A stretch of 64,000 nt of DNA from Thermus thermophilus (lineage in GTDB: Bacteria; Deinococcota; Deinococci; Deinococcales; Thermaceae). Below, one piece after another: positions 27,222 to 27,623 of the stretch. The notes beneath the pieces are model-generated. The model was not told the origin of the DNA and did no database searches. It saw only the letters and a list, made by a program, of their open reading frames with translations. The position numbers and the translations under genes are program-made. The stretch is taken from assembly GCF_019974155.1 (NCBI RefSeq), contig NZ_AP025158.1, forward strand, positions 1,240,001 through 1,304,000, in the 5' to 3' direction. Within the stretch, counting starts at the first letter, position 1. The number at the start of each line of letters is the position of its first letter.

Positions 27222-27623
27222 GTGGAAACGGTGCCGGGCGGGCGCTGGGTAGCGGAGATCTACGGGTGCGACCTCTCCGTGTTGGAAAACCCCAAGATGG
27301 TGGAGGCGGCCCTTCTGGACGCGGTGATGCGCCTCGGGGCTCCCCGGGATTCGGCCCAGTCGGTGGTCTACAAGTTCCACCCCCAGGGGCTCTCCGCGGC
27401 GGTGGTGAGCCCCGTGGCCGCGGTGATGATCCACACCTGGCCCGAGGACAACGCCTCCGCCACCCTGGACCTCTACTTCTACCGGGACGGGGTGGACCCG
27501 GAGGAGGTGCTCAAAGGCCTCACCCGGGCCTTTGGGGCCAAGGAGGAGTCCGCCTTCCGCTACTGGCGGGGCACGGAGCACGCCATCAAGCGCCGGGCCT
27601 TCGGCGCGGAGAGGGCCGAGTAG
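27222..27623 (+). CDS. S-adenosylmethionine decarboxylase-like protein lacking catalytic residues
   Basis: A 133-residue SpeD-family protein. The scaffold is clear: [17 protein letters not shown] at the N-terminus, [18 protein letters not shown] and [18 protein letters not shown]. Normal bacterial SpeD self-cleaves at Glu-Ser in a VxxESHLxIHTWPE segment, forming a pyruvoyl group. Here that segment reads [13 protein letters not shown], so Ser is replaced by Ala66. The active-site Cys (Cys83 in Thermotoga) aligns with Tyr87. It therefore should not process or decarboxylate. It lies 11 nt upstream of speE, so a regulatory or prozyme-like role is conceivable. The start is a leaderless GTG. Confidence 0.82.

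Follow-up and report, generated by a model that had tools for sequence, protein, structure and literature searches.

In class 1b SpeD of the usual kind, two identical chains pair symmetrically and form two complete active sites, and its His68 (Thermotoga maritima numbering, used throughout unless stated) is required for both processing and catalysis. The eukaryotic AdoMet decarboxylase (AdoMetDC) probably originated by fusion of two bacterial SpeD copies and loss of the catalytic group from one of them. The bacterial enzyme is a half-sandwich pair that dimerises via the sheet faces, and in the eukaryotic enzyme the N-terminal (pyruvoyl) sheet holds both the pyruvoyl group and the catalytic Cys (PMC5201418). 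In Trypanosoma brucei AdoMetDC, the ligand is contacted by the pyruvoyl group and Cys100 from one sheet and by Tyr243 and Ser249 from the C-terminal (scaffolding) sheet (PMC5201418); by position, the latter two would correspond to human Phe223 and Ser229. Human Phe223 and Phe7 stack on ligands, and an H243A mutant is stalled in processing (PMC5377238, PMC12467396). The nearest precedents of the protein pair described here are the trypanosome prozyme and a fusion protein of Victivallis vadensis. The prozyme is a dead AdoMetDC paralogue with an active partner; it is a whole class 2 protein and acts allosterically (PMC5201418). In the V. vadensis SpeD–SpeDC fusion, one copy has been deprived of critical active-site residues and cannot self-cleave, and AdoMetDC activity is retained (PMC10407285). 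The bacterial precedents with a dead half in the literature surveyed are fused examples only, and no paper on a heterodimeric bacterial AdoMetDC was found in the literature search.

The window analysed here, a stretch of 64,000 nucleotides from Thermus thermophilus, carries at 27222..27623 on the + strand a gene with a GTG start, speD-A, which encodes a SpeD-like 'scaffold' chain of 133 amino acids (chain A). Chain A matches Pfam AdoMet_dc with an E-value of 1.1e-22 over positions 3–107 of 107, that is, the full-length fold, and falls below the NCBIfam SAM_DCase_Bsu equivalog cut-off (59.9 vs. 75.65 bits). In the alignment to T. maritima SpeD, from which the residue equivalences are taken, the self-cleavage segment Glu62-Ser63-His64 reads Val65-Ala66-Ala67, so that the pyruvoyl Ser and the Glu are missing; Tyr87 replaces the catalytic Cys83, and Arg8 replaces His7. 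Retained are Phe52, Ser58, His71, Trp73, and Glu75, the equivalents of T. maritima Phe49, Ser55, His68, Trp70, and Glu72. Chain A thus shares the fold and these five residues with T. maritima class 1b SpeD (1tlu, 1tmi, 3iwb-3iwd), and differs from this homodimer with two complete sites in lacking Ser63, Glu62, Cys83, and His7. A sequence-only reading of the window had recorded the Val-Ala and Tyr87 replacements, the otherwise retained fold and a speE gene 11 nt downstream, all of which are borne out; its further expectation, that on its own the protein stays uncleaved and has no decarboxylase activity, is probably right.

The speE gene (27635..28579, +), identified by profile matches and locus comparison as the aminopropyltransferase gene orthologous to TTHA0824, is separated from speD-A by an 11-nt gap (27624..27634, +) that contains the ribosome-binding site AAGGAGG. 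It lies directly 3′ of the chain A gene in all 17 loci checked. A promoter-like sequence, TTGCCC-17-TATGAT (27185..27213, +), ends about 8–9 nt upstream of the GTG; because a −10-like TATNAT motif or a weaker form of it occupies the equivalent position in each of the six Thermus sequences compared, it suggests that the GTG is the start and that speD-speE may be transcribed as a leaderless mRNA. The primers published for the speE (TTHA0824) knockout in strain HB8 (PMC9654539) have their sites in the window at positions 27150 and 27635, and therefore the HB8 locus and the window share one arrangement. An Rfam scan of the speD-speE region gave no RNA family, and no plasmid copies of the region were found.

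Exactly two AdoMet_dc genes are present in this genome, speD-A and the gene of locus L001 (C1:435797-436126 by Pfam; 1420-1863 on the − strand of L001), the second encoding a protein of 147 amino acids (chain B). The two are separate genes about 0.83 Mb apart, not one ORF, and speE was not found beside the chain B gene in the 17-locus set. Chain B reads AESHIAIHTFPKKRFLSVDIFSC, with the self-cleavage Glu-Ser-His and the Cys intact (its pyruvoyl serine is S72, and H77 is its equivalent of His68), and is thus the second, intact speD for which the sequence-only reading had proposed a whole-genome search. In the same genome, a search for the archaeal pyruvoyl arginine decarboxylase (PF01862) found none; that for the eukaryotic class 2 AdoMetDC (PF01536) gave no match and was uninformative, its control being equally silent.

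We infer, at a probability of roughly 0.7, that chains A and B form an obligate heterodimeric AdoMet decarboxylase with a single composite active site. Chain B would self-cleave, supplying the pyruvoyl group (from Ser63) and the catalytic Cys83, and chain A would reach across the dimer interface with the adenosine-binding and general-acid residues Phe49, Ser55, His68, Trp70, and Glu72. Because each chain has lost one residue set, one working site would be left per heterodimer, as in the fused eukaryotic class 2 enzyme, and homodimers of either chain would presumably be inactive. The substrate would be AdoMet, because chain A keeps the adenosine-side residues, the sole other AdoMet_dc gene is that of chain B, and Thermus SpeE uses decarboxylated AdoMet (dcAdoMet).

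The A-chain profile matches the C-terminal half of human AMD1 (hhalign, E-value 1.4e-4), pairing chain A Phe52 with Phe223, Ser58 with Ser229, His71 with His243, and Glu75 with Glu247, and gives no hhalign match to the human N-terminal half. The AMD1 sequence used was verified at the residue numbers named in the literature (PMC5377238, PMC12467396). This fit alone is not specific, because an ordinary SpeD too prefers that half. Like chain A, the C-terminal scaffolding half of AMD1 lacks the pyruvoyl Ser and the Cys and has the four paired residues; chain A differs in being a separate, unfused protein of the bacterial class 1b SpeD lineage. An AlphaFold model of chain A (pLDDT 87.5) superposes on T. 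maritima SpeD (1tlu) with a Z-score of 16.9 at 35% identity, and on residues 171–328 of the human enzyme (Z 12), 176–337 of the potato enzyme, and 184–356 of the T. brucei enzyme (Z 10–12). It also matches the N domain of human spermine synthase (3c6k_D, Z 9.7), an inactive AdoMetDC-like fold tied to an aminopropyltransferase, in that case by fusion. Together with the speE operon conserved at 17/17 loci, this match could be taken to mean that chain A is a SpeE subunit with no part in AdoMet decarboxylation. We regard this as highly improbable: the T. maritima SpeD match is far stronger, and the fixed AdoMetDC active-site residues would be left unexplained. Moreover, T. thermophilus SpeE works in Escherichia coli without chain A (PMC11107197), so that the earlier suggestion of chain A as a regulator of SpeE likewise finds no support.

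Among 100 Deinococcota genomes of at least 80% completeness, chains A and B co-occur in 54, and a matching speE accompanies them. All three genes (A, B, and speE) have disappeared from G049 and G063, a low-completeness Thermus draft (G021) has chain A only, and another draft (G028) has a B-lineage protein only. The chain A gene was found, by genus name, in Thermus (in every genome searched), Meiothermus, Calidithermus, and related MAGs. In all 55 A chains Phe49, Ser55, His68, Trp70, and Glu72 are invariant, and Glu62, Ser63, and Cys83 are gone, with Val-Ala or Val-Gly at positions 62–63 in 55/55 and Tyr (54) or Phe (1) at position 83; the single row bearing Glu and Ser that was placed under A in the residue table is L364, the B-lineage protein of G028. 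All 54 B chains have invariant Glu62, Ser63, His64, and Cys83, carry Phe for Trp70, and together show nine residues at position 72, eight of them other than Glu; Ser55 is mostly Thr or Ala, and His68 is Gln in one of the 54. For comparison, Glu62, Ser63, His64, His68, Glu72, and Cys83 are jointly retained in 28 of the 31 ordinary SpeDs sampled. The residues missing from chain A are therefore those on which a pyruvoyl half depends, and those it retains are the ones required of a scaffolding half; in chain B it is the other way round.

The dN/dS of chain A is about 0.11, which denotes purifying selection on a par with that on the intact paralogue, chain B (0.14), and the test revealed no relaxed selection in the dead copy. 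Given their fixation in 55/55 orthologues and the purifying selection acting on the gene, the substitutions are not due to chance or sequencing error. That chain A might be a functionless evolutionary relic, as the loss of two catalytic motifs could imply, is next to inconceivable given this selection, the fixed residues, and its occurrence in 55 Deinococcota genomes, with no Thermus genome among those searched lacking it.

Three features considered as signs of chain B degeneration (Thr at position 55, Phe or Tyr at 70, and a variable residue 72) were rejected as such, since phage SpeDC proteins and some ordinary SpeDs share them; the phage SpeDC proteins likewise lack Phe49, carry Thr55 and Phe70, and vary at 72. 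Among the B-chain changes, only the loss of His68 and Ala or Phe at 55 are special to paired B chains. Because changes at 55, 70, and 72 occur outside pairs, the argument for the heterodimer rests on His68 and on the co-loss of residues. Cys83 is kept by the B-lineage proteins of all 54 genomes with chain A and is gone from 24/24 of those read in genomes without it, namely G028 (in which it is replaced by Val), genus g13, and family f5; these 24 losses are not independent of one another and fall into three lineages or more.

Family f5 of Deinococcota (L042, L044-L062) has single B-lineage SpeD-like proteins that lack Cys83 and often Ser63, in genomes mostly without speE, and these are likely to be a non-decarboxylase family judging from these residues. 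In genus g13 (L035-L040), the A/B/speE set has given way to a class 1a-like SpeD with another kind of speE next to it, and the chain B homologue persists in a degenerate form without Ser63 and Cys83. Four genomes (G040-G043) carry a second, divergent speE homologue with 35–38% identity.

A comparable pair was found in a second, unrelated order, represented by a Deltaproteobacterial MAG (L122, G101) and five relatives, which together make up every genome of that order in the collection surveyed. The A-like chain adjoins a bpsA-like gene, followed by speE where the contig extends, and the B-like chain is encoded elsewhere, adjoining a PLP decarboxylase-like gene and speE in G101, G184, G217, and G246. 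All six A chains retain Phe49, Ser55, His68, Trp70, and Glu72. Cys83 is replaced by Ser in G184 and G217, and in G101 Glu62 is replaced by Ser and Cys83 by Thr; Glu62, Ser63, and Cys83 are intact in three of the six genomes (G148, G246, G273), which counts against the heterodimer. In G184 and G217, the same genomes in which chain A has lost Cys83, chain B has Ser in place of His68, and therefore neither chain is complete alone. In the SpeD tree, which is based on a short alignment and has weak deeper nodes, the A chains of this order (support 99) are not sisters of those of Deinococcota (support 97); because the two groups are not sisters, the A/B split apparently evolved on at least two occasions. 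An operon of Microcystis phage MaAM05 (L234:3486-6264) encodes an ordinary SpeD, a SpeDC-like protein, speE, and speB, and is possibly a picture of the state that preceded the A/B pair.

The sequence-only reading had likened the window protein to the trypanosome prozyme. On that analogy, chain B would possess a whole site and yet be inactive, and the binding of chain A would activate it without contributing catalytic residues. The part that stands is the dead paralogue with an intact partner gene, for which trypanosomes provide a direct precedent (PMC5201418), and the co-occurrence of A and B suits it. The allosteric part fits less well: the active-site residues are kept in 55/55 A chains, where an allosteric subunit would not need them, and chain B has lost His68 in G029, G184, and G217, always with His68 kept in chain A. 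Because chain A keeps the residues of the non-pyruvoyl half and the partner has lost His68 in these three genomes, half-site supply is favoured over allosteric activation, which we consider unlikely. In the heterodimer proposed here, chain A corresponds to one half of an enzyme and seems to provide active-site residues, unlike the prozyme.

It is very unlikely that the composite site acts on ornithine or arginine instead of AdoMet, with dcAdoMet coming from another enzyme, since the genome has no further AdoMet_dc gene, yet SpeE uses dcAdoMet, and chain A retains the AdoMet-binding Phe49 and Glu72. What favours such a substrate, and also counts against the heterodimer as an AdoMet decarboxylase, is that the tree places all B chains, at a support of 100, among the SpeDC-like (ornithine decarboxylase) proteins. 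In the Desulfotignum SpeD–SpeDC fusion, AdoMet activity is assigned to the serine of the SpeD domain and ornithine activity to that of the SpeDC domain (PMC10407285); if those domains are paired in cis, a site with the pyruvoyl group from B and the scaffold from A would be expected to use ornithine. In addition, T. thermophilus makes putrescine and has no known ornithine decarboxylase (PMC9654539). Against this, SpeDC is marked by four diagnostic residues including a Gln (PMC10407285), and Thermus chain B has TKVLPP where phage SpeDC has TKITQP; this position seems to be that of the diagnostic Gln, so that chain B apparently lacks it. In four genomes of the second order, the neighbours of the chain B gene are speE and a PLP decarboxylase-like gene, which also speaks against ornithine or arginine as the substrate. 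A combined arrangement, in which a chain B homodimer is a weak ornithine or arginine decarboxylase that becomes an AdoMet decarboxylase once chain A adds the adenosine-binding residues, is doubtful; if true, the activity of the homodimer could explain the putrescine of T. thermophilus.

Published genetics bears on the heterodimer through SpeD1, which is listed as TTC0473, with SpeE as TTC0472 (PMC4021367). SpeD1 is reported to be needed for N1-aminopropylagmatine and for long and branched polyamines, and a speD1 deletion strain reportedly does not grow above 75°C unless polyamines are added (PMC6418473). If the locus numbers reflect adjacency, SpeD1 is probably the dead chain A, which would be consistent with the heterodimer; the deletion phenotype could also arise through a polar effect on speE.

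The A/B pair appears to be an unfused analogue of the two-half AdoMetDC of animals and plants. It differs from the V. vadensis protein, which is fused and in which the SpeDC-type C-terminal domain is the dead one (PMC10407285), in that the Thermus genes are far apart, the SpeD-type chain is dead, and the pyruvoyl chain is SpeDC-like. If the heterodimer is real, the reciprocal losses in unfused gene pairs of two or more unrelated lineages would mean that the division into half-sites can precede fusion. It would also identify the proteins that make dcAdoMet in Thermus and illustrate clearly that a 'dead' paralogue can be half of an active site. Chains A and B are two small heat-stable proteins, and hence the hypothesis is testable.

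Two other divergent SpeD forms were encountered. In Negativicutes/Sporomusaceae (L116, L129), a class 1b SpeD has Gly in place of Ser63, in genomes that also carry a class 1a-like SpeD, and is by its sequence a candidate for another independent SpeD pseudoenzyme. L286 (G302) is a very divergent SpeD-like ORF (ETSLISAHFANSS, DVFSCK) in a genome with an ordinary SpeD elsewhere.
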